From the NCBI GenBank assembly GCA_963971305.1, contig OZ020306.1:6130842-6194841 (forward strand): a DNA stretch of 64,000 nt, written 5' to 3'. Source of the DNA: Arcuatula senhousia. Taxonomy: Eukaryota; Mollusca; Bivalvia; Mytilida; Mytilidae. Numbering within the stretch: the stretch's first letter is position 1; the number at the start of each line of letters is the position of its first letter. Under the pieces are notes generated by a model, which made no database searches, was not told the origin of the DNA, and was given only the letters and a program-made list of their open reading frames with translations. This document shows, piece after piece, positions 12,209 to 57,000 of the stretch. The translations under genes and the position numbers were made by a program.

Positions 12209-12334
12209 TCAATCCTCAAATTCTTTTGATTTTTCAATGATAGTAGACAGCGTACTTAAAACCTCCCGCACTTTCACTCGGTCTGATCTACCAAATTGTT
12301 CTAAAAGTTCATCTTCCTTTGCCTTTAACATCAT
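12209..12334 (-). CDS. CDCA8: Borealin terminal exon
   Basis: Follows a strong acceptor (ttttcatttacag) and begins ATGATGTTAAAG, read through in phase 0. It encodes 41 residues, MMLKAKEDELLEQF through STIIEKSKEFED, then TGA at 12211-12209. It resembles the helical end of the borealin C-terminal dimerisation domain. The preceding intron holds the 48-bp minisatellite. Confidence 0.8.
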   Translation of the reverse strand: MMLKAKEDELLEQFGRSDRVKVREVLSTLSTIIEKSKEFED

Positions 12335-15300
12335 CTGTAAATGAAAATAAGTTATATATATATTTTTTTAATTTATAAGTGTTTTAATAATTATTCAAGG
12401 ATTTTCAAACTACAATTCAATTCAATTCAATTCTTTATTAGCCAATTTGGTCCCACAGGGGGCATTTACAATAAACAAGTATGATTTTGCTAACAAGTGA
12501 CAGATCTACAATTATATAGTGGCCATTTTACATTAAAAGCCATTGTCTATATAAAGAAAATACACAAAAAAACAATAAGACTCAACACAGACTACAAGGC
12601 ACTACATTTCTTTTTATGAAAGTTTCAAAATTTCAAAGTCTCAACTGTTATAATGTTAGGCATTGTCAAATGATGGGAATGTATGGTTCTGCTGGTTTGA
12701 CATATAGGTTAAGTATTGTTGTCCTATACCAGATGTCTGCTGGTTTGACATATAGGTTAAATATTGTTGTCCTATACCAGATGTAACTCAAATTGATTGT
12801 CAGCAACATGACGGATATGCTTCAGCAAGCAGGAACTCTTCTGGAGCAATTGAGTTCATTTATTTTTGGAGATTTACTTCACATTGATTATTCCAGTTTG
12901 GTTGTAATACAGTACATGGTTTTATGTGTGTGTTTTTTGGAGGGATGATGATATAATGTTTAAAGATGTCTAAGTCTAATAAAAGTTACCTAATTTGATT
13001 GTCCCATTGGTACACATTGCTTCTTTCAAGGACATGTGCATACAAATTTTCATCAGGTTAGAACTTATAGCTCATATGGAGTTATGTACTAACAAACTTA
13101 GACCTTATGCACACAATACAAAATTGGCTCTAACTATTGGAATCTTTAGTGCACAGTATATTTTACACATATATATAGTGCATACATAAAAAGGGGGCCA
13201 CTCAATCGGACAGTGCCTGTCTGATGATAATGTACATCAAGGGGGGCCATTCAATCGGACGGTGCCTGTCTGATGATAGTGTACATCAAGGGGGCCATTC
13301 AATCGGACAGTGCCTGTCTGATGATAGTGTACATCAAGGGGGGCCATTCAATCGGACAGTGCCTGTCTGATGATAATGTACATCAAGGGGGCCATTCAAT
13401 CGGACGGTGCCTGTCTGATGATAGTGTACATCAAGGGGGCCATTCAATCGGACGGTGCCTGTCTGATGATAGTGTACATCAAGGGGGCCATTCAATCGGA
13501 CAGTGCCTGTCTGATGATAGTGTACATCAAGGGGGCCATTCAATCGGACGGTGCCTGTCTGATGATAGTGTACATCAAGGGGGCCATTCAATCGGACGGT
13601 GCCTGTCTGATGATAGTGTACATCAAGGGGGCCATTCAATCAGACGGTGCCTGTCTGATGATAGTGTACATCAAGGGGGGCCATTCAATCGGACAGTGCC
13701 TGTCTGATGATAGTGTACATCAAGGGGGCCATTCAATCGGACGGTGCCTGTCTGATGATAGTGTACATCAAGGGGGCCATTCAATCGGATGGTGCCTGTC
13801 TGATGATAGTGTACACATACCTGTACTGTTGTAATGGTCCCTCTGTTATTTCTGACCTGTCTGATGATAGTGTACACATACCTGTACCGTAGTTATGGTC
13901 CCTCTGTTATTTCTGATAGGACTGCCACCCAGTGACATGTATATCTCTCCAGGTTTAGCATCCCTATAGTGTACACATACCTGTACTGTTGTTATGGTCC
14001 CTCTGTTATTTCTGATAGGACTGCCACCCAGTGACATGTATATCTCTCCAGGTTTAGCATCCCTATAGTGTACACATACATGTACTGTTGTTATGGTCCC
14101 TCTGTTATTTCTGATAGGACTCCCACCCAGTGACATGTATATCTCTCCAGGTTTAGCATCCCTATAGTGTACACATACCTGTACTGTTGTTATGGTCCCT
14201 CTGTTATTTCTGATAGGACTCCCACCCAGTGACATGTATATCTCTCCAGGTTTAGCATCCCTATAGTGTACACATACCTGTACTGTTGTTATGGTCCCTC
14301 TGTTATTTCTGATAGGACTGCCACCCAGTGACATGTATATCTCTCCAGGTTTAGCATCCCTATAGTGTACACATACCTGTACTGTTGTTATGGTCCCTCT
14401 GTTATTTCTGATAGGACTCCCACCCAGTGACATGTATATCTCTCCAGGTTTAGCATCCCTATAGTGTACACATACCTGTACTGTTGTTATGGTCCCTCTG
14501 TTATTTCTGATAGGACTCCCACCCAGTGACATGTATATCTCTCCAGGTTTAGCATCCCTATAGTGTACACATACCTGTACTGTTGTTATGGTCCCTCTGT
14601 TATTTCTGATAGGACTGCCACCCAGTGACATGTATATCTCTCCAGGTTTAGCATCCCTATAGTGTACACATACCTGTACTGTTGTTATGGTCCCTCTGTT
14701 ATTTCTGATAGGACTGCCACCCAGTGACATGTATATCTCTCCAGGTTTAGCATCCCTATAGTGTACACATACCTGTACTGTTGTTATGGTCCCTCTGTTA
14801 TTTCTGATAGGACTGCCACCCAGTGACATGTATATCTCTCCAGGTTTAGCATCCCTATAGTGTACACATACCTGTACTGTTGTTATGGTTCCTCTGTTAT
14901 TTCTGATAGGACTGCCACCCAGTGACATGTATATCTCTCCAGGTTTAGCATCCCTCATTTGAGCTGGAGTGACAGGCAATCTATCATTTAAAAAATAAAT
15001 AGTAAATAATCTCTCTAATGCCTAATGGTAATTGCAGGTCATTCATACAGACTAGAATGGTGATCTTCGATGGAAGACATATGTCATTTGCATCTTAAAT
15101 ATTCAGTAAACATAAAGTAGATGAGTTATGACCATAAAATTGCTTTATGCCATGGAGTACATGTACTAAAGGAGGATCCTACTCGCCAAATATTAAGAGG
15201 TTGTGACACCTTTCTGTGATGTTGCAAGACAACGGATAGTGCCAAAGTGACTCCTATATGTCAATTTGCAACACGTTGCAGGTAACATAAAATGGAAATG

Positions 15301-18300
15301 ACCAGGAAATGGCATTGATTTTACCTTCCAAGAGGTACTTGATAGTTAAATATTCCAATGAGACCTATGATATTGCCAACAGTGTGACATAACTGTGTTT
15401 TTTCTTACTGGAATTTATGCTAGCATACAAATGAAAAGTCAAAGTAAATCAAGAACAGCTTACCTAGGATCAAATTTGGGTGTTATCAGTGGTGTATCCC
15501 AGCCTGCAGCAGACATACTACTATGTACTGGTGTGAAATATCTAAATCAAGAGTAAAATAATATAAGATTGAGGCCATGGGCATTTGGTTTGAATTCATT
15601 CATATCATTCAGGCATACATAGAATTGTATCATCCATTACCAAAACAGCATAGTGTTCTCATTTGGATTTTCTGTACAATATCATTATTTAATTAATATA
15701 AGTCTATCAGAGGTGTGTATTATATATAACTCTATTTAAATAAATCTAACTGCATGTATCATATTATTTCAATACATACATGAACATAACTTATAGCCAA
15801 AACTAATTGTATTATTCATCTTTCTAAAGGACAATGTACCAGTTATGTAAACATTTGCTTTCTAGGAATAAAAGATTATTTTTTAAATAACTGTCATGTT
15901 GATTAATATGCAAAGTATTATAAATTTATAGTACAGTATTTGATGTGCAAGTACATCATAGTACAACAAAATTCTACATAAAATGCATAATAAGATAGAC
16001 CTACCCATTTCTATATGCCGATGGAGGACAACTTGGAGGGGGCATTGTATTTGATATGTTGGCTAATATGCTACTGTTTTTTGTTCCTCTAGCCTTTTTC
16101 TTTACTGTAGTTTTTTTCTGAAATAATGACAAATACATATATAATAAATACACTCATGTAAAACAAATGTATCTATTTGAGATGGATATACCAATACAGG
16201 AACAATATGTTATAATTTCAAAAAAAATTGTCATATATTTTATTTCTCAAGTCTAAGAATATGCTTGAATGTCATGATAACAGCCAATTGAACATATAGT
16301 GAGTAACAGTCAAGAAAATTCTCAGGATTAAGCTTTTTTTTGAATTTTCAAAAATATGAAAATAGCATTCTACTTTAAAAAGTCAACTATTAATGTATAG
16401 CACTGCCTGGGATTATAAATATTAAGGCATTGAATATATTAAAAAATAAAAATATGGGACACTTCCCTGTGCTTAATATCATATCTTAACCTGAGTTTTT
16501 TTTAAACAATGTCATGAGTTTGGATGATATAAAGCCTACACATACCTTAGTTGATCTTAAAACACTGTTTTCAATCCCTCCGTCTTCTGATATTGTCTCA
16601 TACATTCTTCTTGACCTATCAGGCAAACAGTATAAGTTAAAATGCCACTATAAGAGACATACATTTAAAAGACCTTCACCTTAGTTGTTTTAAAGGAACT
16701 TACTGGTGTGTTAGTCTGAAAACCCATTCACAAACTGCATATTGTACAAAAGACTTTTGGAAAGTTTCTGAGAGGCTCTGAAGGTTTACACAACTATAAA
16801 TTCCTTCAAAATTATCTTTATTGCTATATAATTAAAGATATATTTCACCAAAAGTTGATTTATATGCATAAAAATAATTATAAAAGTTCTGTACTAATAT
16901 ATAGAAAAATGTACTAATATATGCCTCTGAGTCAACTACATTAATTTAAAAAATATTTCCACTTTCAAAAATGGTGTTGAAATTTGATATAACATGCAAC
17001 AATGGATTTATTATCATTTATAATACAGACAGTTGATTAAACTTGTCCTCTTATTACCGGAACATAATTTTATTACAACTGTTGGTCTTTGGTACATAAT
17101 TTACAGTTTCATATTCTATCAGCATGAAGACAGTAAGATCAATTAAGTGATTTTGAAATTTCTATGCTTATTTGATTTTTTTCAAGTATTGTAAAATTAA
17201 TAGTATAGTAACTATAAAGTTAGCCATATGATTCTAAAATTATCAATTTTCTTTTTTTAAGAAATCCTACCTTGACGTCTTTTTAATGTCATCAACTTCA
17301 TATAAATCTGGGTTGTTAAGTACCTCGTCCACAACACCACCTCTTGCTAAAATAATTATAAGTAAATAAACAGCAATGTTTTGTGTTTTTGTTGGGTTTT
17401 AACTTTTATACTCAGTCCATGTAATAAATATACAGGATTTCAATCAAAAAGATGGATGGAGATATTTAAGATCACAAAATCAGTGTGTGTACTTTTGCAC
17501 GAAATGTTGAATTTGACAAGGTTTTTTTATGTAAATGATTGCTAGCAACCAGACAGGTGTGTTGCAACAAGCATGCATTGCTTACACTTCATAATCACCT
17601 ATATTGCAGTTTTGTTTTGAATTGTGTACTGCAGTCTTTGATGAATACTGATAGTGCATCTTTTATGTATATCCAATATTTGCCCCTTTAACATGGTTAA
17701 TGGCACTTAATTGCTTCTCAAAAGAGTATGCAACTTTTTTTTTTATTTACCACTTAAAAATAGAATGCAGCTACTGTTGATTCATTTATTTTCGTGGGTA
17801 CTTATTTTCGTGATTTGATGAAAAAGGATCAGTTCGTGGATTCTTGAATTCGTGGTTTCGAAGACTGCAGCAAAGAGATCAATGTATATTTCCATTTCAT
17901 GGGGCATCAATTTTCGTGGGTAAAGGTCACCCACGAAAACCACGAAAATTGATACCCCACGAATAATAATGAAACCAAAGTATATGAATTATATGTATGC
18001 CAGCATCTAACAGGTGGTGTGTGTACTTCCTCAGTAATTTTATTCAGTTGAATCTAGGTAAACTGACTGTGACTGTGTTTAAGTACCATTACATTTAGGC
18101 TGATGTTTTTATACTTACAAATAAATTCACATAACTTCATCTGTCTTATTTTCTAAAAACAAAAAAATAATGAAAACAGTTCTTTTCCAAGTGGTTTTTC
18201 ACAACTACATCCTTGTCAGGGTTTTAAATTGGTTGCTTTAAGGGTGGTTTTCAGTTCACTGCCAACAACAAATAATTAACATCTACACACAAAATCTTTT

Positions 18301-19175
18301 GCTTTTAATAAATCAATACAGATGTATTTATTTTATAATGTCACATGTCCCGATTTTTCAGCTCCCTCAAAAAATTTTATTTAGATTTTTTTGGAAATTT
18401 TGTTAAATTTTGGCTATTTTTTTTATGATTGGCAGAATATTTCATCAAAATGGGTGAAAAATCAAAAATTAAATTTGTCCACCAGAATCAAATTTTCAAG
18501 AAATTTGGATGAGAATCTAGGAAATATGCACATATATTATCATCTTAAGAGAATTGTTTGTTAGATTACGTACATGTGTTAACATATTTATCTGTTCCTT
18601 AGATAATAACTTTGTTTTATATATTTCTCTTAACATATATTTTGTTGGTTTCAACTTTTACCTAACCTTTATTAAACTTACACTGGGTAATGATCTGATT
18701 TCTTGTGAATAACATGCCTCTATGTGGTTTAACTGTCTCTGTAAAATTAACTCTAACTTCTTCTTTTTCTCAATAACTGAAATAAATCACATTTAAAACT
18801 AGATTCACACATTAATTGATGACATTTACTTTTATTGTTTCTGGATAAGCAATTACATATAACTTGTTACTGCTTTTTAAGCCAATTCAAGGGTTCTCTC
18901 ATTGTATTAATCCAGTTTACACTAAAAATTTCAAAAAAGATAATAAAAGACAAATTTAATTTGAAATAGAACACTTATTTGAAATCTCTAAATAATTCCT
19001 GCACACAGAGAAAGTCAGTGTAATATATTCATTTATGGTTACCTTGACTATCAAAATCTTGAAGGAAAACATTTAACTTGTGGAGTTTCTCTTCCTTTGA
19101 TTGTGGATCTCCTTCATCACTTTCTGGTAACACTGGTTTAGGACGTGTTGATCCCTTCACTTTTCTTCTTGGCAT
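12209..19175 (-). CDS. CDCA8: Borealin, chromosomal passenger complex subunit (nine exons)
   Basis: Borealin joins survivin and INCENP to place Aurora B on centromeres and the central spindle. Exons: 19043-19175, 18682-18776, 18119-18152, 17271-17346, 16546-16615, 16005-16117, 15464-15541, 14872-14980 (to the first donor) and 12209-12334. All join with GT-AG junctions and matching phases, giving 277 residues; human borealin has 280. The N-terminus (KLHKLNVFLQDFDSQ, then KKKKLELILQRQLNHIEACY) matches the borealin coiled coil that binds survivin and INCENP. A basic linker with TP and SP sites follows. Then come PKFDPRLPVTP and PGEIYMSLGGSPI, matching the start of the C-terminal dimerisation domain, and the last exon gives a helical tail. 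A tag acceptor 10 bases before the ATG implies an upstream non-coding exon. Exon 8 is amplified (see the repeat entry). Divergent from AIRIM. Confidence 0.88.
12412..12437. repeat. Short aattc microsatellite
   Basis: About five head-to-tail copies of aattc, followed by tttattagccaatttgg and a diverged repeat tail. Such short pentamer tails often mark the 3' end of a non-LTR retrotransposon copy, but no reverse transcriptase is visible nearby. Confidence 0.5.
12688..12783. repeat. Two tandem 48-bp copies in borealin intron 8
   Basis: Two head-to-tail 48-bp copies beginning tctgctggtttgacatatag and ending ataccagatg, differing at about one position. A recent local duplication in the intron before the last borealin exon. 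Confidence 0.85.
13190..13815. repeat. 48-bp minisatellite, 13 units, borealin intron 8
   Basis: Thirteen head-to-tail units, marked by gtgcctgtctgatgat at 13213, 13262, 13310, 13359, 13407, 13455, 13503, 13551, 13599, 13647, 13696, 13744 and 13792. Nine of the twelve steps are 48 bp; three are 49 because of an extra g in the ggggg run. Units differ mainly at cggac(a/g)gtg. A 48-bp unit leaves several frames open, which explains the long open frames seen here on both strands; these are not genes. The segment tgatgatagtgtaca is shared with the end of the adjoining 99-bp array, so the two arrays abut and probably arose together. Confidence 0.95.
13818..13866 (-). repeat. Partial copy of the borealin donor unit
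   Basis: On the minus strand this repeats the last part of the 99-bp unit (agaaataacagagggacc through ACAGTACAG) and the donor GTATGT (GT at 13820-13819), then passes into tatcatcagacagg, the start of the 48-bp minisatellite. It lacks the first half of the unit and joins the full copies through a TGA, so it is not open with them. A truncated twelfth copy that links the exon array to the intron array. Confidence 0.85.
13867..14955 (-). repeat. CDCA8: Amplified borealin exon 8 donor region, 11 x 99 bp
   Basis: Eleven head-to-tail 99-bp units, each exactly 33 codons. On the minus strand each unit holds 84 bases of borealin exon (RDAKPGEIYM, then SLGGSPIRNNRGTITTVQ), the donor CAG|GTATGT, and 15 bases of former intron that stay open as VCVHY and lead into the next copy. 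The whole array is one open frame, continuous with the exon that starts at 14980. Any of the eleven donors could join the last exon in phase, so the product could carry from zero to ten extra modules of 33 residues (277 to about 607 residues). Copy 9 has CAT in place of CAG before its donor. Which donor is used cannot be told from the sequence. Confidence 0.93.
14872..14980 (-). CDS. CDCA8: Borealin exon 8, ancestral extent
   Basis: Starts after the acceptor atgatag (exon base 14980) and runs LPVTPAQM, then RDAKPGEIYM, then SLGGSPIRNNRGTITTVQ to the first CAG|GTATGT donor (GT at 14871-14870). Its upstream join, atgAGGGATGC, differs from the array joins, tatAGGGATGC. This marks where the duplicated segment was cut: at AGGGATGC and 15 bases into the intron. 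Confidence 0.85.
15542..18118. other. Borealin introns 3-6 and flanking sequence
   Basis: AT-rich intron sequence between the borealin exons listed in the gene entry. Apart from those exons, the only structured piece is a foldback at 17,786-17,975. Nothing else is supported. Confidence 0.6.
17786..17975. repeat. Foldback repeat with ttcgtgg motifs
   Basis: The segments catcaattttcgtgggta and cccacgaaaattgataccc lie as inverted copies about 40 bases apart, after several spaced ttcgtg(g/a) words. It sits in borealin intron 3, between the exons at 18119-18152 and 17271-17346. Probably a small foldback element or the end of a MITE. Confidence 0.6.
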
Positions 19176-24545: not shown

Positions 24546-25657
24546 CTCCCCACCCCCATAAGACATAATTGGTAAAATATTAAAGTGTGTTATAAAGTTT
24601 TATCCATTTTTCTTCTGAAATGAAGTTAGAGTATGGTATTACATCTTACATCTTCTCTGTAAATTCCACCTTTGTCAGGCGCACCACTGAATTTCTTCAG
24701 TGTAAATCCCTTATTTTATCATGAATATAGCACAGTATACAATTTTAGACTGCAATGGTAAATGTAGAAACATCATTCTTCACTTTAATTTTATCAAATA
24801 TGAAGTTGTTATTCAGATGCAGCCATATTTTCCAAACCAAAAGGTGTGTGGAAAACAACAAAAATCAATGAAATTAGGACAATTTTCTTAAAATATAGCT
24901 ATTTGCACTAACTGATTGGCATGATAACTAATCTGGTATAGAAAAGGCCTTACATTTTCTTCAAGCTAAATGACCCAGGAAATTTTCATAGAAAAAAGTG
25001 TTTTAAAGACACTGAAAGTTTAGGAAAACAGGAGTACAAGTCTGGATGTAGAAGGAAAATTTAGCTCCTATATGTACAATGATGTACAATTATTGACATC
25101 TATACCAATTTTACCCCCTTCAAGAGCGTATAATTTAGCTTCAACAGGTTTATGTTTAATTTCAAATAAAAATAAATAGTTATCTTTATAATAAGGATAA
25201 ATTTGAAGTTACCATGGTAACAGCTTCTGTTTCCTGGACTTATGTTAAAAACTTTTTTTCATTAGTTTAATTTATGACTGCATATGTTATTATTCTTTTT
25301 ATTATCTGAATGTTTTACACAATATATTATAACAATGATTTAACTAACATAGGGGCAGAAAGACTTGCTAATCAGGCGGAAAATGACTAGCTAGGGTAGA
25401 CAGGAATTGTAGCAAATGACCTGGATTAATTTTCTTGTTTTGACTTTCAAATTACCATTTTGAGAAAAATACATCACAGGTATTTTAATGAATACAATAA
25501 AAATGTTTGAATGTCTCCCATATTGAATTTATTCCATTCAATTTTATATGGAATTAGGTTGTCATATTCTAAAGCAAGACCAATGTTATTCTAAGCTATC
25601 TGTATGTCTGAAAATAACTCAATGTATCATTTCTCATTGCAGGACTACAAGGATGGA

Positions 25658-28600
25658 ATGGACAATATAGAATTGAAAAAAGCTTATCAACAACTACAAA
25701 CATCCTATAGAATTCTTCAACAATGTAGCATTAAATGGAAAGAGACTTTAGAACAATGTCAAGGAGAAATAGACTCTTTACAAAACTTATCAGAACAATA
25801 CAACTGCTGTCAATCAGCTAATGTTGATGTCATTGTACAAAAACTTCCAGATATAAAGCAAAACCTGTTGTATAAAATATCATTGGAGGTCAACAAGAAA
25901 CTGACAAAACTACATAACTTATTGTAAGTATATATGTTTAGCATTGCATTTTGTCAGATTTAAGTATAGATCAAGGTTATAAGAAAATATTTTAATATTA
26001 AATACATTTTCTTATAGCGAATAAAATGTTTAATTACCCCAAGCTGAACAGGGACTCATCAAGGTACTTTGGAGTACCTGTACTTATTCTTCCTATTGAA
26101 TGTGTTGCTATGGAAGTTTATCTCTCTGATCAGTTTAAACTCACATCTATAGACATGATAGAGAGGAGATTATCTTGTTGTATGAAGGAAAGATTTTCCT
26201 AGTTTAAAAGATTTACCTGTTGAAAATTTCACATCGGCAAAATAGCTCAAAAATATTATTTATACAAAAGAAAATGTGCAAAAAAATGCCATAGAGTTGT
26301 TTTAATCATTAAATTCATTAAAAAAAAATTATTTAGTTCATCATAGATATAAGCAATTTTTCTCAGAGATAGTTTTTTTCCTTCAGGTAAAAATTATCTA
26401 CCTATGAGTAGTTTTTATTTTCAATGAAGGTGTGAGTTAACTGATCAGAAAGATTAGCTTCTATTATTACAAAATTCTATAGATAGATTAAGCACCAGTA
26501 CTCCAAAGTACCTTGATGAGTTCCTGTTTAGCTTTGGGGAATGAAACATTTAATTCGCTATAAAAGGGTTTGTAAAGATGGCATCTGATAAGACAGTAGT
26601 TAACTTATAATGCAAGTTTTGAAATGACATAAAGGTTTGTAATTTTTGTCTCGCCTGCGAAGCAGAGCAGGACAGAGGTGTTACTTTACCGCAGGCGGCA
26701 GCAGCGGCGTTAACTTTTTGGAAAAGTTTTATGAGCACCTCCATATCTCAAGAACTATAGGTCCTAGGTTGATGAAACTTGGTATGCATATGCCCCAGTA
26801 GTAGCTTAGCACCATTGCATCCCCATCTTTTGACCTTGACCTTGATTTTTTGGTTGAGTGACTTTGATTATTTTTATTGCATATATTTGCAATGTTTAAG
26901 TTCTATAAACATCTTTTGATCTCAGAAACTGAAAATCCATGTAAATTCAAAATATAGTGGAAGTAAGAAAGAATAATTGTTTCTGATGGTGCCGTCAGGC
27001 GAGACATACTTTAGTGTTAACTCTTGTTTTTATATAGTTTTGTGTGTGAAATGATATATTTCTGCTCATTTTGTTACGTATTGACTGATATATCAATGAT
27101 TTGATTTATCACCAATATATATCACAGGTATATGAATAATAATTATAATGTGTGCTCACCCCTAATAAAACTTGATAAGATTTACAATGTATTAATGCAT
27201 TATATTAACTAAAAAAAATCAAATCTTTAAGCAAGTTTTTTCACCTTGTCAAGTAAGTGTTCAGTATGATAAGAAATGAGTTAATTGTCTATCTATTACA
27301 GAAACAATTTAAGAGAATGTTGTGAAAGAATGTCTAAACAGCATGGATACAGTATTGGGGTTGTAAAAGACCTACCTATAGATGTTGTTTCCAAGGCAAC
27401 AGAAACAATCCCAGCGTTCTCTGATTTGGTAGAATGGTTAAATGACATCGATATATTGTTAAATCATCAGTATCCTTTTGAAGATAATTACAACAAATCG
27501 TTTGATGTTCTATAGTAGATGTTTTTTGTCTAAAAGTTGTATGTTTATAAATTTCAATATCTAAAAACTTAAAGACAAAACCATGAAACACTTAGGACAG
27601 AACAATGATGACACATGTAATGAAACAAAGGTAGATGGGGTGTTGAAAAATCCATTCAAAGAACTATCTTTAATTTTGGCCGCCACAAGTCCTATTAAAA
27701 TCTGGATAATATAATCAAAGCTGACCATAAGAATTTTTGTAGAAATGACTTTACAAAATGCATGATTTTAGTACTGTAAATGTAGGATCAGTAGGCAATT
27801 ATACTCAAATTCAGAATAGTGGTACCTTTTTCAATTGAATTTAAATGACACCAACAGGTTTGCCAATTAGGTGTCTTAAGAGAAGAAAGAGGTTAAAAAT
27901 TAGGTCAGTGAAGTTGGTGAGCCATAAAGCACCTTCAATTGATAAAGGTACCACTATTCCTTCATCTAAGAAAATCTACACCATAGATTTTTCTAAAAAT
28001 TTTTGAATCTTTGTTTTTTTATGTATTTTTAAATACAACAAATAAAAATTAAGTTCACCCTCATTTTTTTTGTAAAAGTGAAGAATTATTTCTATATAAA
28101 TTATCTCCCCTTAAAAAAGTACAGGAAAATATTGAAACTTGCATAGAAGAATGTTTTTTTCTCCATTTTTTTTTAAATTGTTGTTTAAATGATATTTTTC
28201 TTAGCCCAATAGAAATCAATCAGTATATAACTAGAATTATGAAAATTAAAGTTATGATAGATGAAAAAAAAGATGCTCAGTGAAAGACATCGCATCTACA
28301 TTAACTTAGGGTAGTACTGTGCTCCATCTATAGAGTTTCCTGTTTGTTGCAATTGATTCATTACGTTTCCATTAATTAGTGTAGAATGGGGGTCCTGATG
28401 GGGGATGCTTAGTTTTTTGCTCTAGTCAGAATATATTTTTTATTATTTAAATCTAAAATATTTTCAGGAAAAAAACAAGTTGAAGTTAACTCTTCAAGTA
28501 AATGGTTGGTCCCTAAATAATTTCTGGGAAAATTTCATGTTGCAAAACCCAAAACTTTGAAGAATTTTCGTTTGTTTGAATAATAAAAATGTTTGCAAAA

Positions 28601-37100: not shown

Positions 37101-40100
37101 CTGCCATTTTAAATGAAAAAAGTATAAAAACAGACATAATTTGCAAAAAAAATAAAAAATAAATTTTTTTGAGGTGCTGAGAGAATCAGGGCGGGAGGGG
37201 ATGAGAATCTAATAAATTTTTTTTATATTGGCCTTAATGCACAAAATCGTTATTCTTTCATACATTTAGGAGCTCATAAAAAAGGTCTTGACCAAAAACT
37301 TAAGAATTGTAAGACTTGGGGGTAATTTTATTTGTGTAGACCAAGCTTATCAAAATAATTTCATACTTTTGATTTCGCTCTTTTCTTCTCTTCTTGACTT
37401 CATCAAAGCTTGGAAACATGAAATTCCCTGAGAGTGGTGGTCGTCTTTCCACCTGTCTCATTTTCTGGACTTCAGGGTATGTCACCATCGCACCATGACC
37501 TCTCTCACAATAAAAATATCTTTTTCCTTTGAAAACTCCATTGTGTGTTGAATTTACTTTAAAATATAGAAATCCCAATGTTCGTTATCTTGTCAGATTA
37601 AAAAAAAAGCATATTTTCATTTTAATCAATGGGATGAATGAACTGTACACATTGTATTGTAGATGTGTGCATATGAGATTGAGTATTGTAAATATGTCCT
37701 TGGGTATTTTGGGTTTTGATATTTTAATGTCCATATCCATTATTTTTTAAAGTCTCTTATTTTTACAGATGATTAAAAGTGGGTATTTGGCTCATTTTGT
37801 ATATTTTAAATGGGTGTTTATATACATTGATTCTGCACTTCTTGATTAATAATTTACTTCCATTTCTCTATGTTGTGGCCTTATCATTATCATCTAATTA
37901 TTTACTTCCATTTCTCTATGTCTTAACCTTACTATTATCATCTAATGATTTACTTCCATTTCTCTATGTTGTAACCTTACCATTATCATCTAATTTAACT
38001 CCCACATACAGTCTAGGTGCTATGGCATTATCATCTATGACTCCAACAAACTTAACAGTTCCTTAAATCAGAAACAAAAAATAATAAGATACAAAAGAGA
38101 TAGGTTTGGTCCCTAAAGCATGCTTAAATCCACTAGTTTGTACTTCTTTTGATAAGAAGTTACTAAATCAGGACCATTGTGATTTTCACTGATGAAATAT
38201 TGAACCACTATACAGTAGTATAATAATAAAAATTACTTTTTGTCTATGAGTGTTTTTTTTTTATTTAATAGACATAAATGACACATGAAATAAGTGTAAC
38301 CTACATAAAGTGCACGGTGTAGGATCATATCGACTCCTTTCGGCGATTTTAGGCGTTGCTCGGCTCCTTTCGGAAATTACAACGACTCCTATACTAAATA
38401 TAACCAAAAAGTTCTGAAGCGGGATCGGTGTAAGGTCTTTCAAAACTCTATAATCAGAAAAAGGTAAGATGTATCGATCAGACAATGACTTTACGGAATT
38501 TCCAAACAAATGTATTTTATGCTAAAGCAAGATTAAAAGTGTCAAAAACAAACAATTAATCAGTTATAAGAAAAATAAAGGGCTGAACATGTAATCGCGA
38601 GTTAAAATTGTGTATAATTGGAACTAATCCAACATTTCTGTAAAGAAAAATATATTTTTAAGTCAAAAAATGTGATACGAGTCCAGGCGAAAATGATAAT
38701 ATTACGTAAAATTATCATTTCTAAGATAATTTGAGGTTTAATTAATAATATCTAGAAACGCCTCCTTTGGGTCAAAGGCACCGACTCCTTTTTGTCAATA
38801 CGTCGGGATACGATTTGTTATGATGTGTTGGAAATTGGTAAGCTGAACCCGACCACTTCACGCGGGATATTACCGGCTAAGGTAACAACTGGAAACGAAA
38901 CGACACTCCAAACGATTTAACGGTGTCTGATTTAAAAAAAAAATAAAAGAATGATAGAAGGCTATGGTAGACAACAGTCTTGTTGGTCCGCTTGTCAAGG
39001 ACAATTGAACTTGAAAGGGGGCTTTTTTTTTTAAGCAAATATATTAGTTTTTTTTTTTTTGGACGGAAAAAAATTTAAGACCCAAGAGTAAGAAATTTGA
39101 AATTATTTCTGCCCTATAAAATAATGCTATAACTATAATAATAAACTGCTGGCTTTTGTTGCCTTCTATCGTTTTTTATTATCTTTTTTTTTAATTATAC
39201 ACTCGTTAAATCGCTAAGACGGTCGGGGTTTTTTTGCCTTTTTTTTGCCTTAGCTGGTTGTTATTATTCTAACATTTTTTCCAACTTTTCATCACACTCT
39301 TTACATTGTATTCATAACTCGGGTACTATATATATTTGGTAACAAGCTTTGTGTAGAAATGGTGCATTGCACGTGTGATGCTGTTGTTGCGAAATTTGAC
39401 ATTTTCCGTTTACGACATATTCAATTCAAAACCTTTATTTTTTGCGTAAACTGACCTTACTAGCGGCGGTCTTTGGTATTAATTCCCATTGAAGTCGACT
39501 TTTCTCTTATATTGTTGGTCAAGGACAATTGAACTTGAAAAGGGTTTTTTACTGTATTGTTTGACGGAAAAAATTTAAGGCCCCAGAGTAGGAAATTTGA
39601 TATTATTTCTGCCCAATTAAATAATGCAATTGGTTGTGGCCCGACCACATTATTGTACCATTTAATATAAATGTAATAATGCTTGCTTTAACATTATAAG
39701 CTAAAATACAAATGTGTTGTTTATGTTTTTGTAGATGGACGTAAACGTTTCATTATTAGATTTGTTTGGCATGGAAGTGGTGGAAAACGAGGAAGATAAT
39801 ACTAAAACAAATACCACAGCAGATGATAATAACAATAATAGTATTCAAGAAACTGAAAGTAACAATATAAACGATAACGATACCACAGAAAGCCAAAGTG
39901 TTGAGCTGGATACGAGTACGATGAGTGTTGGTGAAAACATTGAAATTACCACAGTGACTAAAATATGTTGTGACCATTGTGGAAAATCTTTTGCCACAAA
40001 GTATACTTTAAAAAAACACTTAAAGTGTCATTCTGATAATATGGAAACCTGCAAAATATGTGATAAACGCTTTTTCACACTGTGGGATGTTAAGCAACAC

Positions 40101-43100
40101 ACTGACACGGTACATAAGAAAGTAACTATGGAATGCAAAACTTGTGGAAAAAGCTACAAGACTAAAGTTGGTCTAAAAAACCACAAGAAAGAGCATGATA
40201 ACAAATTCAAATTTCTTTGCCCATTCTGTGGAAAAGGTTACAATTATAAAACTGACTTTGAAGGACATAAGCACATGCACGAAAAACAAAAACCATTTAA
40301 TTGTGACAAATGTGGAAAAAAGTTCCAATACAAGAATTCTCTGACATTACATTATACGACTTGCGGAAAAAAAGACAAACGATTTAAATGTGATACATGT
40401 GGGAAAAAATTCAAAAAACAGAAATATCTTAATAAGCATACAAAAATTCACGACTTTCCAGAAAAATACCAATGTAATGGCTGTGGTGATTTTTTTAATC
40501 ACCGCGCAAGTCTTTATAAACATACCAAAAAACATTAATCATAGAAATGTCATAAAACTGTTATGATTGCACTTTGCTTATATTGTTCATTCAGTAGGGA
40601 AACTATTAAGTTTTCTGCATTAGTTCGGTACTGTAAATAATTATGCCACGTGTACATTCAATTGCATTGAGTTTTTATGCCCCCGCGACGACTTTTCTGG
40701 GGGGGGGCATTAAGTTTTACTCATGTCCGTCCGTACGTACTTACGTCCGTAGGTACGTCCGTCCGTACGAATTTCCGTCAAGCTTTTCTAAGAAACTGTA
40801 AATGAGAATGACTTGAAACTTGGTAGGATGGTTCAGTAAGACAAACTATATGTCCTAAGCGTATTTTAGACATGTCCAACATCTACTTCCTGTTTGGCGC
40901 TGCCCATATAAACATGAAAATTTCCGTCAAGCTTTTCTCAGAAACGTATCTTGGAATGATTTGAAACTTAATAGAATAGTCAGTATGATAAACAATGCGT
41001 CCTAATCGACTTTCAGGCATGTTGAACTTGTACTTCCTGTATCATGATGGCCCTATCTGAAAATCCTAATCATGTCGAACTTCAACTTTTTTATTTGGGA
41101 CCAGCGGGGGCATCCGTGTCACATGGACACATTCTTTCTTTATTTTTTATTTACTTCTCGTTTTTTCATAATTGTACTTTTGGTTATCAGTATTGATAAA
41201 TATCCTTTGTCCTATTTTGTTTAGAATTGTAAACAGAAGAACTGTGAAAATAGAAATAAACAGAGAATATCACTATTACTACATTTTGGCTTATATGTTT
41301 GGTATTACTAGTTTTAAACATCACACACGCTTTTCAAGTCAATACCCAAACGTGTTGTGGGTAAAATCTTGGACTCGTCGGTCTTATGTTGTTGCCTAAT
41401 AGGTAAGCATCCTCTGGAAACCTCATGAGGTTTTGAAATGTCTGACTTTTTTGATACTCTCTGTTTTCTTCTTTTTCGCAGTTGGGTATCAAAAAAGTGG
41501 TCTCTGAAATGAAAATGTTGAATATGAAAATGATGCGCATAGCAAAATGAAACAAGTCTGATACATGACTGTAAAGCCTAGGTTTAAGCCCCTTCATTAT
41601 GATATGACTAAAGGCTTGTGTAAACTCCTCTTTTGAGATCATTATTTGGCTCCATACTGGAATCCTCCTGAGGGTCTGAACATTGAAGACGATGAACGGG
41701 ATAGACAGATTTCCTCGTTGTTGACATAGAGAAAGTTCTGTTAATAATAAATGAACTAATGTTTATAACAAAGAATGGGATTTCTCCCTTACCGTTCAAC
41801 TATAAAGTGGTGGTTGCATTATGTGGTAATAGTCTTTAATTTATTCTGAAACACTTCAAAAAAAATTTCAAAACTGTAAAATAGTTTGATTTTTTTTTTT
41901 GATAGCTCTTCATGTAAATATGGTATTTGTCAAAACTACGATACCTTGGATTTTATTTTTCACGGAGAAGATAAAGATAATAACAAAACTACCGAAGGAG
42001 ATAATGGTAATAACAAAACTACCGAAGGAGATAATGGTAATAACAAAACTACCGAACTTGCAGAATGAATCTCAAATGTTCAAAGGTCAAGACAAAACAA
42101 GACAGCACCGGGAAATTGGTGAATCGCAATGGTTCTGGCTTGGCACAAGCGGTGGGGGGTTGAACCAGGTTTTAAAGCGCCTAAACTTTTTCCATTGCAA
42201 TATTAGGATCCGGTAGTGACACAAAAAACACGTGCAACTGGATTGTGAGATACAATATACTTTTAATATACCTTTCTGATGGTTCACATCGATAGTGAAG
42301 TATTTCTGTAACTGTCGAGATAAGACGAGGAATGCTGATAGCTTTTGGACAACCCAGTTTGGTAGCTTCCATCTCGCTTAGCTCCCCAAAGAACGTTTCA
42401 TTGGCTAAGCTTGACACTGAACGTTGATTGTAAGTTCCAGAAAGTGCATAAAGCTGAATGTTCGTATCTATTTTCTGCAAAAAACCTTCAAAGGAAGCTC
42501 TTGTAAATCCATTGATGTACATACCACACGGTGGGAAAATTCCAAAATCTATGTTTCGTAAAAGAAATGCCTTCATTCTCAAACGTCGACATATTCTGTC
42601 TTCTGCAGAAATTCCAGGAAAGTCATCTGCTTCATACCACTCTCTAACAATATTGCAGAACTCTGCTTCATCTTTGTATCCAAGTTCTTCCATTCTATCT
42701 TCTACCTGTTTCGAAAATGTTCTTAAAGCAAACCCATTGTTCTGTTTGTCGATTAGGTCAACCACAAGAGCTTTGCTAATAATGTTACGATCTTCAGCAA
42801 CTTTATGCCACGCTTCTTTTTTCATTCCAGTAAGACCGTCCTTACACACTTTGACACGTAGGTTGACTAAAAGATGATGTGCGTCTACACACATGGGTTC
42901 ATACTTCTGTCTTTTATCACTGAATCCTGGATGAGAGAAGAGTGTCGTTGAAGCAACACCATCTATTTGCAAATCATCGGAAAACGGCGATTGGGAAACC
43001 CAGCGATCATACAACTCTGGGTAAGTAAGTGTAGCATACAGAACATTAAGTTTGTTTTTAGGCAAGTTATGACTGTTGATTTTAGTAGAAGATCTTATCT

Positions 43101-46100
43101 TGGATGCAGCAATGTCCTTTAATGTCATCATGTGCTTCACAAATCTCTCTTCTTCTATTTGTTCACCGCTTCCAATCAGTAGACTCAGCGCATTAGATTT
43201 GTCTTGAGCTCTCCATGTCTTTTTCACAACGATTCCTTTTCTCTTCTGTAAATCGATCGTTAAAGAAATTATAACATTCATTTCATCATGAGTTATAAGT
43301 GCTTTCAAAGTTTTGATTTCAGAAGTAGCTGTCTTTAAATCATCGTGTGACTTTGTTGCCCATTTTTTTCGTACTGATGGATTTTTGTGGTCTTTCAGTT
43401 CTCCTAGAATTGCTTTATACAATTCATCTGACATTTCTACTCTTTCATGATCTCTGTTAATTGTTTCGTCATTGTTTTCGACTGGAACTTCTATTTCTTT
43501 GTTGGGAATATCAGGAGAGGATACATGAACTATTCCAGGTATCAAATCAGTTGCAATGTCCTGTTCGTCGATAAGAGCATCAAGCGCTTCGTCGGGTAAA
43601 CATGATAAAGTATCATCAGCTGAAGTGTTCTCTGTTTCAACTACATGAACTTGATTGGCATCCTTTTGTTGTACACCTTTACTTATGCAGGATGTCAGTT
43701 TATAATACAGAGGACATGACACAGATATACACCCTTCTTTTTCTCTAACCAATAGATCTTTTTCTACATCTCTTACTATTGGCGTCTTTGTAAAACCTGA
43801 AATGATCGAATCTCGATTTTGCTTTCCCGCCTCATCCCAGACATCTTTTTGAAGCTGCAACAACGTTAAAGGTCTATCTTTATCATCCCTATTTGCCAAC
43901 GTCATCCATTGCCCGTCAAAACAGCTGCATGTTACTTGTATTTGATTGTCATGACAGTGCTGTAATATGTCATCATGCATGGCCCGCATAGTTTTTGTTG
44001 ACAAGCTATAACCCTTCATTGCGTATGAAATTGGCAGCGAGTGTGGTATTTCAGGGTGCCAGAGTCTATCGGTGTCACTTAGTAACCACACCAATACTTC
44101 ACTAGCCTTCTTGCGACAAAGTTGATACGTCTCTTTAATGGCTGATATTGTGTCACCAAAAACTGCGTTTACGTCAACTTTTGTGGAAACGCATAATCTT
44201 GACACTGGGAATATGAAGGAGATGAATCCTGTGATTGAGACATATTAAGCGACGTACCCTTTACCGATCTTACTTCGCATAGAAATCTAGTAGAATCTGT
44301 TCTATATTGAGCCATCTTTATCTTAATATCTTTAGATCCTTGGGAAAGTCGTGTGGGTCTTTTAGGTGTCTCCTCGCCATAGAGACTCATGGATTCTTGA
44401 AATATCTTGTTCCAGAGCTCATTGTCAAAGTTTGCTTCTATTACAACTGAAGACTCTTCTGACCATGATAAATAAAGTAGCCTGTCGACTTTCATGCATG
44501 CCATCTCTGATAAAATTTGAGGAATATACCTACAAATAAACATAAAAAAGTACAAGTGGATGCCCCACTGCGTGGCCCCACACAGGCAGGAAAAGTCAAA
44601 CATAGACGATGTTAAGATGTGGAATACAACAAACATAAACAAACAGCAATTCAAAAAATCACGACGGAAAGCAACAAGCTGTTTTCAAAATGACAAGAGG
44701 TCACTGCTTGCCCTCTTGCATTGGCCCAAGACTTACAGGCACATATAAAGTGTAGCGGAGTTAAACTAGTTTTTTGGATCCAACCTTCCCCCTATTGATA
44801 AGCTTGCACAAAGCATACATATAAAACACAGTCTTTTAGGACGTGTAGTTTGTCATACAAAACTATCCTACATTGTACCAAACTTCAAATTTTGCTCGTG
44901 TACTGTTTCAGAGAACCGGTCTGAAAGTTGCTCAGGAGGTACATATATATCATACTAAACTACCCTATCAATTTTCAAATTATTTTGATAATGGTGTCCA
45001 AGAAAAATTTGGCTAATTCGTATGGACGGAAGGGCAAACGTACGTACGTACGGACATGAATAAAACTTGAATCCCCCAACATTTTGCGGGATACAGAAAT
45101 AGTCTGACGTTGTTCTACTGGAAATGAATGACCGGCCTAAATTCATTTTGGTTAGTACCTTCTTTACTGCTATAGTATATGTAAGAAAAGTACTCTTAAG
45201 GTGTCTGTATTTTAATTACTGTAATTTCGTATGCAAATTGTGGGTAGTACAATATACAAAGAACTACTAGTATTTGTGCACTTTATATTACTAGCAATTT
45301 AGAGTAAGCTAAGCTACAAAGAACTTATCAAGAGGCTTAGACAACGGTGTGGTGTTGATTCCGAAAATGTGCATTTTTGTAATGTCAACGGACACGGGAC
45401 AACGAAGAATTATTACTAGTAAATTCATATTTTGCTTCGAATCGCTTGTTAGGCATATTATTATTATACTTTACCTTAAGGGTATTTCGTAATGAACTGG
45501 TGGTTTATAGTCCGTCTCAATGGGGCACCTGAATTCACACGCTAATTGTGGGATGGGTAGTACTTCGGGATTATTGAGGTCAATTTGTCCGAGACTTCCA
45601 TCTGGCGAAATAAGCATGCATTGCTTGACTCCATTATTGATTGGCAGACAACCCTCTTCGATATATTGCAAATCTGGGAAGAAAAATGGCAATACTTTAC
45701 TTGTCAAAGTTGCAATGGCATGGATTTCCGAAGTGGTTCCGTGTTCCAAATGCTTTTTTACTTCCTCTGAAAATTCCTCTTGATCGTCTCTACCTTTAAC
45801 CACTTTATCATAATGCTTGAGCTGGTTTTTTAGTGTGTCTAATCCAATACCCTCAAATATAGTACTCCCAGTAAGTCTCACGGTTTTTCGCAGTTGAAAT
45901 CAATCCTCAGATCTCTGTTTGATAAGGCGAGTCTCACGTGTTAAATTCTCGGGAAGGTCAGTTGGTTCTTTAAGAGAAATCCAATTAGGCTGTGAAAACG
46001 AGTCCACTGATGACCCACCAGCAAACGAATTCGTTGTTCCTGAGAGTGATGCACCTTCCATCAGCAAAGCATCATTGGTCGACAAAAGACGGGTAACTAA

Positions 46101-49100
46101 AGCCTTAATTTGAAAAATCATGGACTGGATACTGCTTATGGCAAAGACATATTTAGACTTTCTCCAGTCGTCACCAGCTTCCTTGTAAAACTTTTTTAGT
46201 GACAGTTTTTGCCGTTGATAGAGTATTCACAGGTCTTTGATTCTGACAGAGACTATTTGAACAATATGCGTAATACAAGATCTTCGTTCGTTCATTGAAA
46301 GATTTTCCCATTGATCCTTTGCAGCATCCACCTCAGCTATTTCTTTATCTAATCTTTCTTTTAAACTTTGCAAGGTGTCTGAATCCTCATGACCAAACAG
46401 GTCTTGGTCACCATACTCCGAGGTAAGTCCTGTGGCTATTTTCTTGCCATCTACAGACAGGACATACTTTCTTTTCTTATCAATAAAGTTGGAAACTTCT
46501 TTAATTATTCCTGGTGGGATTTCTCTCGGAAATTTAGATTCAATTATTTCAAAGTAATTGTTAACTGTTTTTACGTCTGGGACTGCAAAGTTCATCTCTG
46601 TTAGCTTTGGATCATACAACCCTTTATGTGTTGCACCTTCAACAACTTGCCCAGTAGATCTTGCCCCGGACATGAAACGTAAACACTTTCCGTGGAAAAG
46701 CCGATAGAGAATTTTCCAGAATTTGACCGACTCAGCAGGATATGACATCATTGTGGTACTTTCAAGAGAATACCATCGAGCTACATCTGAAACCAACCTT
46801 AGAGCAATGTTTGTTAGCGGAAATTTACCAGAGTTTATGGTTTTCAACAGGACACAAAAGTCGGTGAACAATCCTGCACTTTTTAACTTATTTAAGACTG
46901 CTGGTATTATGTCTGAAATTGAATCGATGTCCTGCTCTATCTTAGAGGAATCAAATAGCTTTTTAGATGCGGTAGTATGTTTTTGTTTTGATTTTTCTAC
47001 AAGTGCCCTCCTCAAGCATGATGACGTGACTCTGAAGTGTTGGTGAGTGCTGGTTTTATTGATGGGTGTGTCAGTCTCTATTTGTACACCGTTGTCTTCT
47101 TCATGTAGCTTTCTCCGTTTTGGCTTGTGGAGCCATAGTAAGGATTTTTTCCGTTTAATAGGTTTTCTGAAAAACAAAAATTACTCTATATTGATAATTT
47201 TAGTTTCTTTTTAGTATTATGATGTGTGTGTGTGTGCGTTTTTGTTGTTTAAATTATAATTACAGTCGTTTCATATACTTTCCTACACCCGTAATATATA
47301 ATATTGAAAATTAAAAGGAGTCGTTGCTCAAACTAAAAGGAGTCGTTGCTCAATTAATAGGAGTCGTTGCGCAAATTCTAAAGCATATTTGTCAAGCTTA
47401 CAGGAGGCGTTGCTCGTACTTCAAGATATACTCAGTTTACGTGCATTTTATGGAATATATCTAACAGGTTTTATGTTTTCGGCATAGGAAAATCAATATT
47501 CGTCAAACTCTTTGTAATAAAATTTAAATGTTTTGCTGAATATTACTTCTATTAATAAAAAATCTACATGATGATTATGCAGGTATGCTTTGTTTTGCTT
47601 TCTAGAATAAAACAGATATTTGTTTTAGAGTGTTGGTTACGTTAACATGTAATTCAAGTTAAAGGGTGTTCCGTGAAATATTGACTTTATACAAATTCAC
47701 CTTTTTAGGTCTTCATTTTCCATGTTTTTGTAGACTCATACCCTGTATTTATACGATAGGAGTCGTTGCAATAACCGAAAGGAGCCGCGCAACGCAAAAA
47801 TCGCCGAAAGGAGTCGATATGATCCTACACCGTGAAGTGGCAATTTATAAATATCCACAATGGATAACAGCCAGCAGCCTTCAATGTGACCAGTGGTCCT
47901 TGCATGCCGTCTTGCATAGGCCCAAGTTAAGTTAGCAATATTAAGATTTAAGTGTAATCTACATTTTCTACATTTCTATTACCAGGTACAGAAATGTCAA
48001 TTTACAGGTATAACAACTGTACAAAAATTATAAGAAGATCTTTATCCACTGTTACCAAACAAAAAACAACAGTGAATAAAAAATACACAAAGTTTATGAA
48101 AAACATTTATTATAATTTTAAAAAAGACAAATGAATAGAATTTTTATGGTGATTTTATTCTCTCTATCAATCTTTAATGTAAATTTCTATATTGACCCAA
48201 ACAAAACGTTTTAGATAAAACTACTCCATATCACCAACTTTTAACCAATAACTATAATTTAACTACGACATCTATAGGCTTAACTTTATCCTAAATGCTA
48301 CATAAATATGATATTTTTGTTTGGTCAAAGCTAATGGAATATATTGAGTTCATTTGGTTATGTGGTGAAACATAAAATTAGTAAATGTAAAAAAAAATGT
48401 TCAAAATATGTACCTCTCCTAAAAATTGATCCTAAATGAAAGTAAAAAAGAAGAGGATGTTTTTTTGGAGATCTTAATATAAGTATTGTATGACAACTGT
48501 TTTGCTCATAAATATTGCTTCAAATGAAGGCATTTATGAGATCCCTTAAAACAACTATTTTTTTTTACTTCATTCATACCTTATCAAAAAAAATTCTTTA
48601 TATGTAATAATAATGTACAAAACATGATATATAAGTCATTGACTCAATATTTTAATAAAATATTTTGAGATTTTAAAAAAAAATTGTTTTTTAAATATTC
48701 GTTTTTGTTAGGTAACAAAAAATGCCTCAAACATTACTATTTTTTGTTAATTATGTAATGGTATACCAGGATGCTGTCCCCTAACAAGAACTCTATCTCC
48801 AATCTTTATGTTCCTCTGCTCCTGGGGAATAGTTGTCGAGTCCTCTGCTCTGCTCAGTGAAGATTCCCTTAGGATTTCTGAAGCGTCACCAAAATTGTCT
48901 TTCCAAAATTTCTTACATGGTCCACATGTGCACATAAATGGATCAACATCACTCTATGAAAAAAGAATAGGTAAAAGCAGAGCCATACACATGTAATTCC
49001 TTATGCTTATTATGATTAAATTACATGTGTGGTAGCTGCTATATATAGGAACTGATACAACCCGTCCAATTTAACTATGGACTTTCGATTGCAGCGTTAA

Positions 49101-55437: not shown

Positions 55438-55949
55438 GGTTGTGTGGAATGTGCCATAAAGAATTCAAAATAACTTTATTAGTTGAATTTAGACAGGAAA
55501 GTATAAAAGGGATAATTTTTTAAGTTTTACCTTCTTGTATTTTATACATTAATAAAATGTTATGCCACTCTTTATTTCTCACAACATCGATTTGCCATAC
55601 TAAGTAAATTCTTATTGTTATGGTTGTCAATGATTCGGTATCCATTCTGGATTTTCATGTTTGCCTAATACCCCCTTCACATATACGATATTCTCTTACG
55701 AGTTGTTACGATTTTCAAAATTTATAGTTTTACGAGTTCATGCGAGATTTTCTTCCAACCTTTTACGATCTATTTCCGAGTTGTCACGATTTCGTCAGTT
55801 GTGCGGAAATTGTTCGCACTCCCGTCCAGACACGATACTAATTTTATTTTCGGACTGTTTACGAGCATGTTACGGTGCCTTTACGACGTCTTTACGAGTA
55901 AATTGCGATATTGGAAATCATATCGTAACGGCGGCGGCGGCGGCGGCGT

Positions 55950-57000
55950 AAACTTTTTTGTAAGACTTTTGTGGACAATGAATTGCTTGAAAAGTATATA
56001 ATAGCTAGGCATCTGATATTTGGTAGACAGACAGTTCAGGATATGGTCTACGCAACTGTCACCATGCCGTGTGACCCTGACCCGATTTTCACGCTCCAGT
56101 GACTCTTTGAACTTAGGTCTTTTTTCAGACCATAAACTTTTTTGTAAGACTTTTGTGGACGATGAATTGCTGGAAAAGTATATTAGCTAGGCATCTGATA
56201 TTTGGTATACAGACAGTTCAGGTTATTGTCTACGCAACTGTCACCATGCCGTGTGACCCTGACCCCATTTTCACGCTCCAGTGACTCATTGAACTTCGGT
56301 CTTTTTTCAGACCATAAACTTTTTTGTAAGACTTTTGTGGACGATGAATTGCTGGAAAAGTATATTAGCTAGGCATCTGATATTTGGTATACAGACAGTT
56401 CAGGTTATGGTCTACGCAACTGTCACCATGCCATGTGACCCTGACCCCATTTTCACGCTCCAGTGACTCTGTCTTAGGTCTTTATTCAGGCCGTAAACTT
56501 TTTTGTAAGACTTTTGTGGACGATGAATTGCTGGAAAGTTATAATAGCTAGGCATCTGATATTGGGTAAACAGAGAGTTGTCGTTATGGACAATGTACAT
56601 TGTAACTGTCACCATGCTGTGTGACCCTGACCCCATTTTCACGCTCTAGTGACTCTGTGAACTTAGGTCTTTTTCAGGCCAAAAAACTTTTTTGTAAGAC
56701 TTTTGTGGACGATACATTGCTGGAAAGTTATAATAGCTAGGCATCTGATATTGGGTAAACAGACAGTTGCCATTATGGACAACGCAACTGTCACCATGCT
56801 GTGTGACCCTGACCCCATTTTTACGCTCCAGTGACTCTGTGAACTTAGGTCTTTTTTCAGACAGAAAACTTTTTGAAATACTTGTGTGGACAATGAATTG
56901 CTTGAATAGTATAATAACTAGGCATCTGTTATTAGGTATACAGACACTTTTTGTGTTTATATCAAGAAATGAAAGCTTAGGTAGTTGATTTTAGTGATGG
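55950..57000 (+). repeat. Satellite-like array of about 185 bp, six units
   Basis: Units start with aaactttttt at 55,950, 56,134, 56,326, 56,495, 56,684 and 56,866 (steps 184, 192, 169, 189 and 182). Each includes ttgtaagacttttgtggac, gctaggcatctgatat, caactgtcaccatg and gtgaccctgacccc. A (ggc)n run precedes the array and gccggcaggcgagacac follows it, the same right flank as the single-unit element at 26,648-27,005. Short minus-strand frames in it are by-products. Confidence 0.85.

Follow-up and report, generated by a model that had tools for sequence, protein, structure and literature searches.

The window analysed here, a stretch of 64,000 nt from the genome of Arcuatula senhousia, is located in a 74-Mb contig (C4) of the 1.036-Gb assembly. 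On its minus strand nine exons of a Borealin gene were chained from splice signals and phase:

19043..19175, minus strand: exon 1, 133 nt, from the ATG; donor gtaacc
18682..18776, minus strand: exon 2, 95 nt
18119..18152, minus strand: exon 3, 34 nt
17271..17346, minus strand: exon 4, 76 nt
16546..16615, minus strand: exon 5, 70 nt
16005..16117, minus strand: exon 6, 113 nt
15464..15541, minus strand: exon 7, 78 nt
14872..14980, minus strand: one-unit form of exon 8, 109 nt; G of donor 1 at 14871; aligns with protein P0001
12209..12334, minus strand: exon 9, the last exon; acceptor before 12334, phase 0, stop codon TGA

With exon 8 ending at donor 1 the chain encodes a product of 277 residues. 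In this product Pfam detected the domains Nbl1_Borealin_N (PF10444; E 1.7e-11, 44 bits, cut-off 24.4) and Borealin (PF10512; E 1.8e-10, 41.4 bits, cut-off 19.5), and residues 30-235 matched the Borealin chain 9si3_L of the PDB (E 2e-7). The closest relatives are Mytilus Borealins and the mytilid-like Borealin P0001, with 56-67% identity. Across the exon 8/9 junction formed from donor 1 the product is 61% identical to P0001 over 77 residues, and the C-terminus of the one-unit form aligns with it with two gaps of 3 and 2 residues. The identification of the gene as Borealin, together with exon 8 and its frame, is therefore confirmed by both Pfam domains scoring above their cut-offs and by the alignment of the junction.

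The window contains several further features. An open frame similar to C1orf109 (PF15011, E 2.4e-11) lies at 25595-25927 on the plus strand, divergent from Borealin; CDCA8 and C1orf109 presumably form a neighbourhood in human. At 39735-40538 (plus strand) an open frame encodes 267 aa with C2H2 zinc fingers, and a 182-bp tandem repeat of 5.5 copies was identified by TRF at 55949-56946. Long open frames of 687, 171, 142, and 317 aa at 42181-47180 (minus strand) gave no Pfam match at E 0.001 and possibly belong to a mobile element or an undescribed gene. Rfam gave no match within the window at gathering thresholds.

The end of exon 8 and the adjoining part of intron 8 are repetitive:

13867..14955, minus strand: eleven 99-bp units in tandem, each consisting of 84 nt of exon tail and 15 nt of intron head (TRF)
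14065..14163, minus strand: unit 9 of the array; donor CAT|GTATGT, variant base at 14080
13795..13866, minus strand: partial duplicate with a period of 61; holds a twelfth donor CAG|GTATGT behind an in-frame TAA (TRF)
13191..13815, minus strand: another minisatellite, a 48-bp unit in 13 copies, adjoining the partial duplicate (TRF)

TRF reported 11.0 copies of 99 bp with 99% matches. Read on the sense strand, each unit consists of 84 nt of coding sequence followed by GTATGTGTACACTAT, after which the next copy begins. The unit is translated to RDAKPGEIYMSLGGSPIRNNRGTITTVQVCVHY, with H in place of Q in unit 9, and the frame of 33 codons per unit is open across all 11 units without a stop, as had been described in the initial annotation. 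Minisatellites, or VNTRs, are made of head-to-tail copies of a unit of about 10-100 bp, and the head-to-tail arrangement of highly similar 99-bp units corresponds to this definition. In the whole assembly the unit has 12 matches, every one at the Borealin locus. The copy number of a VNTR varies between individuals, and that of the array may be polymorphic, as had been proposed. By our reading the 48-bp repeat derives from about +6 to +53 of the intron, and the intron stretch TGTACACTAT is common to the 99-bp, 61-bp, and 48-bp repeats.

The donors of the array lie at steps of 99 nt, at 14871, 14772, ..., 13881, and the donor sequence CAG|GTATGT is present in ten of the 11 units. In unit 9 the computed pairing with U1 is reduced to -2.7 kcal/mol, compared with -9.3 kcal/mol for the CAG|GTATGT donors. 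Since the donors of exons 1-7 range from -5.1 to -10.2 kcal/mol, the ten array donors are about as strong in computed pairing as the gene's own donors. When joined to the acceptor at 12334, donors 1-11 all give in-frame products, with predicted lengths of 277, 310, ... 607 aa and with 1 to 11 modules according to the donor used. Exon 8 would measure 109 nt with donor 1 and 208-1099 nt with donors 2-11; exons 1-7 measure 34-133 nt. The twelfth donor, with its G at 13820, is situated behind the in-frame TAA, and the form made from it stops after residue 577, without exon 9. Several donors thus precede a single acceptor, the arrangement that defines alternative 5' splice sites at the sequence level. 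It had been proposed that every unit carries a complete donor, that the gene has eleven equivalent donors, and that every choice among them keeps the frame. The first holds for ten units, unit 9 being the exception; the second has to be abandoned, as one of the eleven is weakened and a twelfth exists at 13820; and the third applies to donors 1-11 but fails for donor 12.

We considered whether the units could be tandem alternative exons or new introns. As a rough criterion for an acceptor the pyrimidine share of the 20 nt preceding an AG was used. It is at most 0.55 for the nine AGs of the unit, compared with 0.65-0.85 for the eight acceptors of Borealin. With no acceptor-like AG in the unit, the copies lack the appearance of exons in their own right, and this possibility was rejected. 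A retrocopy that would preserve a record of past donor use was likewise discarded, as the unit matches the Borealin locus alone and no near-identical retrocopy bearing exon 8 was found.

The PGE..GSP module encoded by the unit occurs exactly once in 27 of 28 homologues, the remaining one (P0024) having no match to the motif used, so that the one-unit form made from donor 1 corresponds to the conserved protein. A protein with two modules was not found among these 28, which are all other than the species' own Borealin. Searches with a six-unit query (7 matches; 7991 candidates sharing most words were scored) and with a two-unit query (2 matches) returned only members of the same 28. In the three protein searches no near-identical protein, that is, the Borealin of the species itself, was among the matches; the lack of two-module proteins consequently carries no weight concerning expression in this species.

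Residues 221-235 of the query align with residues 217-231 of the 280-residue chain 9si3_L, which places the unit at approximately residues 205-232 of the human protein, if 9si3_L is taken as human numbering. In the available part of the source, the stretch 222-280 is described as serving as the dimerization domain of Borealin (PMC6891087). By these boundaries the unit holds the PGE..GSP motif and the very start of 222-280, and the bulk of that domain is encoded by exon 9. The earlier placement of the unit in the C-terminal dimerisation region is therefore correct for its last residues, but most of the unit lies just before the domain. An AlphaFold2 model of the read-through array was beta-rich and fairly confident. 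Confident AlphaFold2 models of perfect repeats are a reported artefact (PMC11795689, available part), and the predicted fold was for this reason rejected as evidence; no solved structure resembling the model was found at E 0.001. The model of P0001, based on a 27-sequence alignment, has low confidence over the unit region, with blocks of 55-69.

The 11 units differ in columns 42, 66, 75, 78, and 84, all five at third codon positions; the variant bases that tell units apart are those at 14890, 14518, 14419, 14221, 14122, 14080, 13891, and 13888. A sixth variant, in column 72, distinguishes the unit consensus from the partial copy 12 and was read by eye; it is also at a third position. Five of the six variants are synonymous, whereas 69 of the 297 single changes (23%) would be expected to be so (P about 0.003 for five or more of six). 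Comparing third with other codon positions, Fisher's test gave 0.003 for units 1-11 and 0.011 for units 2-11, in tests that treat sites as independent and deal with tiny numbers. The sole replacement change, Q to H in unit 9, weakens a donor too. No significant contrast was obtained between nonsynonymous-type and intronic sites (1/76 versus 4/48, P 0.07). The mean pairwise divergence is 1.25% for the 99-bp units and 2.05% for the 48-bp array, the latter from 12 of 13 copies with the indel column dropped. The bias towards third positions hints, without proving it, that the units may be or may have been translated. It was taken as a hint only, since copy 12, whose sequence beyond the TAA is translated in none of the 12 donor forms, has the same pattern.

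How much weight can be given to the open frame? We simulated duplications over the other seven donors of Borealin, with exon tails from 20 nt up to a maximum of 100 nt and intron heads of 10-59 nt. The frame stayed open in 1452 of 21,000 simulated duplications (6.9%); counted among the 7000 with a length that is a multiple of three, these are 21%. Presumably the eleven copies descend from one event, and the open frame then counts once and not eleven times. The in-frame outcome of every array donor would thus be a single ancestral coincidence. The repetition itself goes far beyond what chance would give. The same cannot be said of the open frame, which is at best mild evidence for a role of the later units.

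Tandem repeats of this kind were searched for elsewhere in the genome. In a sample of 200 kb taken along contig C4 in 20 stretches, 15 tandem arrays, together 21,529 bp, had a period of at least 30 bp, at least 3 copies, and a length of at least 200 bp. A donor-like motif was absent from all 21 TRF rows of this sample, which argues against donor-bearing arrays being frequent. Genome-wide, three CAGGTAAGT at gaps of 70-100 gave 426 + 357 matches, compared with 17 + 4 for the reversed pattern; these are overlapping matches and not arrays, and because CAGGTAAGT is in addition a real splice motif the ratio overstates the enrichment. The figures cover CAGGTAAGT at one gap range, and arrays of CAGGTATGT lie outside the count. 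Among the matches listed there were six loci, all on contig C1, and four of them were read. Three carry donor-bearing tandem units as in the Borealin array:

C1:62154000-62155800 (L043): dynein-like exon with six donors; its tail and donor recur, along with the intron head, at intervals of 101 bp
C1:80620500-80631500 (L040-L042): ankyrin-like 90-bp array of dozens of units
C1:4987200-4988500 (L045): exon end of receptor type, ..NLVIADLS|GTAAGA; behind it, units of 44 bp and 88 bp that carry many donor motifs

L043 is the clearest likeness, as its repeats of exon tail, donor, and intron head follow an exon that has an acceptor. One frame of this 146-nt exon is free of stops up to the exon's donor, and all five longer forms contain stops; its match to AAA_7 (E 8.6e-5, 22.6 bits) is below the cut-off of 25.8. 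In L040-L042 nearly all units read have the donor CAG|GTAAGT, and in the stretches translated the ankyrin frame stops right after it; similarity to PF00023 is below the cut-off (E 0.016), and neither the array start nor a parent exon was seen in the stretches read. In L045, which resembles 7tm_1 below the cut-off (E 0.029), the 88-bp units include a copy-like stretch of the exon end, and the exon frame stops just after the first of the donors in the 44-bp and 88-bp units. The fourth array, L044, has irregular units of 77-92 bp with one gap of 183 and stops in all three frames, and no exon was established there. A 45-bp unit at C1:4091607, read from the listing, also has stops in all three frames; the last of the six listed loci is at C1:37539702. 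Compared by eye, a 17-nt GT..AG junction in L040-L042, GTAAGTGTGTACTGTAG, and its Borealin counterpart, GTATGTGTACACTATAG, share 13 of 17 positions, for which we have no explanation beyond chance.

Of the five donor-bearing arrays read, Borealin is the open case; the units of L043, L045, and L040-L042 contain stops, unlike those of Borealin. Since all four other arrays contain stops, the amplification of donors does not need an open frame. Exon tails or other donor-bearing segments are thus amplified in this genome regardless of frame.

We consider it likely that the Borealin array is not a built device but a minisatellite of recent origin that has taken in the boundary between exon 8 and intron 8. 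A 99-bp segment, made of 84 nt of exon 8 and the first 15 nt of intron 8, would have been duplicated in tandem and expanded to 11 copies, probably via unequal exchange; the repeats of 61 bp and 48 bp beside it would draw on the same intron stretch. Most likely the spliceosome takes donor 1 as the end of an exon of 109 nt, and the other ten units would leave as part of the intron. We infer that donor 1 is the one mainly in use and that no selected function attaches to the additional units. Several observations count in favour of this reading: 27 of 28 homologues have one module, the one-unit C-terminus aligns with P0001, the exon ending at donor 1 is within the size range of exons 1-7, the unit has no acceptor-like AG, tandem arrays are common in the C4 sample, and donor-bearing arrays with stops recur in the genome. 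Against it, the third-position bias, a weak signal, makes the copies look as if they were read as protein, and the ten donors strong in U1 pairing argue against the use of donor 1 only. According to the available part of PMC5585400, SRSF1 favours the intron-proximal of competing donors, a further point against this reading, and hnRNP A1 the intron-distal one. Given such factors and the strength of the later donors, some leaky use of the latter is to be expected and seems likely, each unit adding 33 residues with the frame kept. An appreciable production of multi-module Borealin would nevertheless be unlikely in our judgement, and a regulated role for such forms would be more unlikely still.

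Alternatively, the array could encode length. A draw among the ten identical donors would then produce in each individual a ladder of Borealins with 1 to 11 copies of the motif, the length of the array, shifting by unequal exchange, would set this ladder, and arrays of exon tails would form a recurrent class of which the open ones may be exapted. We regard this as doubtful. A related proposal is that several donors are used purposefully and that the 1 to 11 modules tune the function of Borealin under regulation. That all 11 units are open through to a shared acceptor, that ten donors are strong, and that the variants are biased to third codon positions would fit such a device. However, an open frame arises by coincidence with a chance of 7-21%, stops interrupt the other donor-bearing arrays that were read, the peptide VCVHY gained by read-through derives from the intron, and the exons would reach 1099 nt; the absence of two-module proteins among the matches points in the same direction but is uninformative for this species. 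We therefore give little credence to the proposal.

The long form might also be the main product, if intron-proximal donors were chosen and the open frame allowed a many-module Borealin to be tolerated. The equal strength of ten of the 11 donors and the preference ascribed to SRSF1 in the available text would favour this, but hnRNP A1 is ascribed the opposite preference there (PMC5585400), use of the most proximal donor, at 13820, would give a protein of 577 residues that lacks exon 9, and an internal exon of 1099 nt is unlike the rest of the gene; we consider this improbable. Least probable of all, the copy number could be an assembly error, by expansion or collapse, with far fewer or more units in the true allele: near-identical units are hard to assemble, and the unit matches the Borealin locus alone, but units 1, 5, 6, 8, 9, and 11 bear variants in distinct combinations, unlike a simple one-unit stutter, the window is in a 74-Mb contig, and similar arrays exist elsewhere in the genome.

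Returning to the minisatellite reading, partial parallels have been described. The available part of PMC4974935 deals with tandem genomic duplication at splice boundaries, citing the Rogers model of intron gain and a potato RdRp case, and with a 24-bp AGGT segment of fission yeast that was duplicated several times so that an intron spans four duplicates (SPOG_01682). As in the Borealin array, internal duplication across an exon-intron boundary multiplies splice signals in these cases. In contrast to what that text describes, the duplicated piece of Borealin comes from the donor side of an intron that was already there, is present in 11 copies, and has no acceptor-like site, so that apparently no new intron was gained. 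The TERT repeat VNTR6-1, about 3.5 kb upstream of exon 7 and proposed to act by way of G-quadruplexes, is likewise an intronic tandem repeat in a conserved gene with a potential shift of isoforms; as far as the available text of PMC11830802 goes, it differs from the Borealin units, which themselves carry coding sequence and donors. In intron 4 of DOK7 two donors 11 nt apart are both used (PMC5585400, available part). There too several donors compete for one acceptor, but Borealin has ten identical donors and one weakened donor at exact steps of 99 nt, and their use is a prediction. By title, the papers listed from the open-access literature included neither one on molluscan Borealin nor a close precedent for a donor-bearing minisatellite or VNTR. 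In the same literature no paper other than PMC4974935, itself available in part, was found to name SPOG_01682.

The ten identical donors, the point-mutated one, and the dynein-like counterpart with its closed frame constitute a natural experiment on donor choice, which addresses the question of exon definition versus intron proximity among equal donors. The array further shows that a splice site of a conserved gene can be taken up into a tandem repeat in this genome, and it points to a kind of array that recurs there. Their copy number could thereby change the length of an exon and, now and then, the length of a protein.
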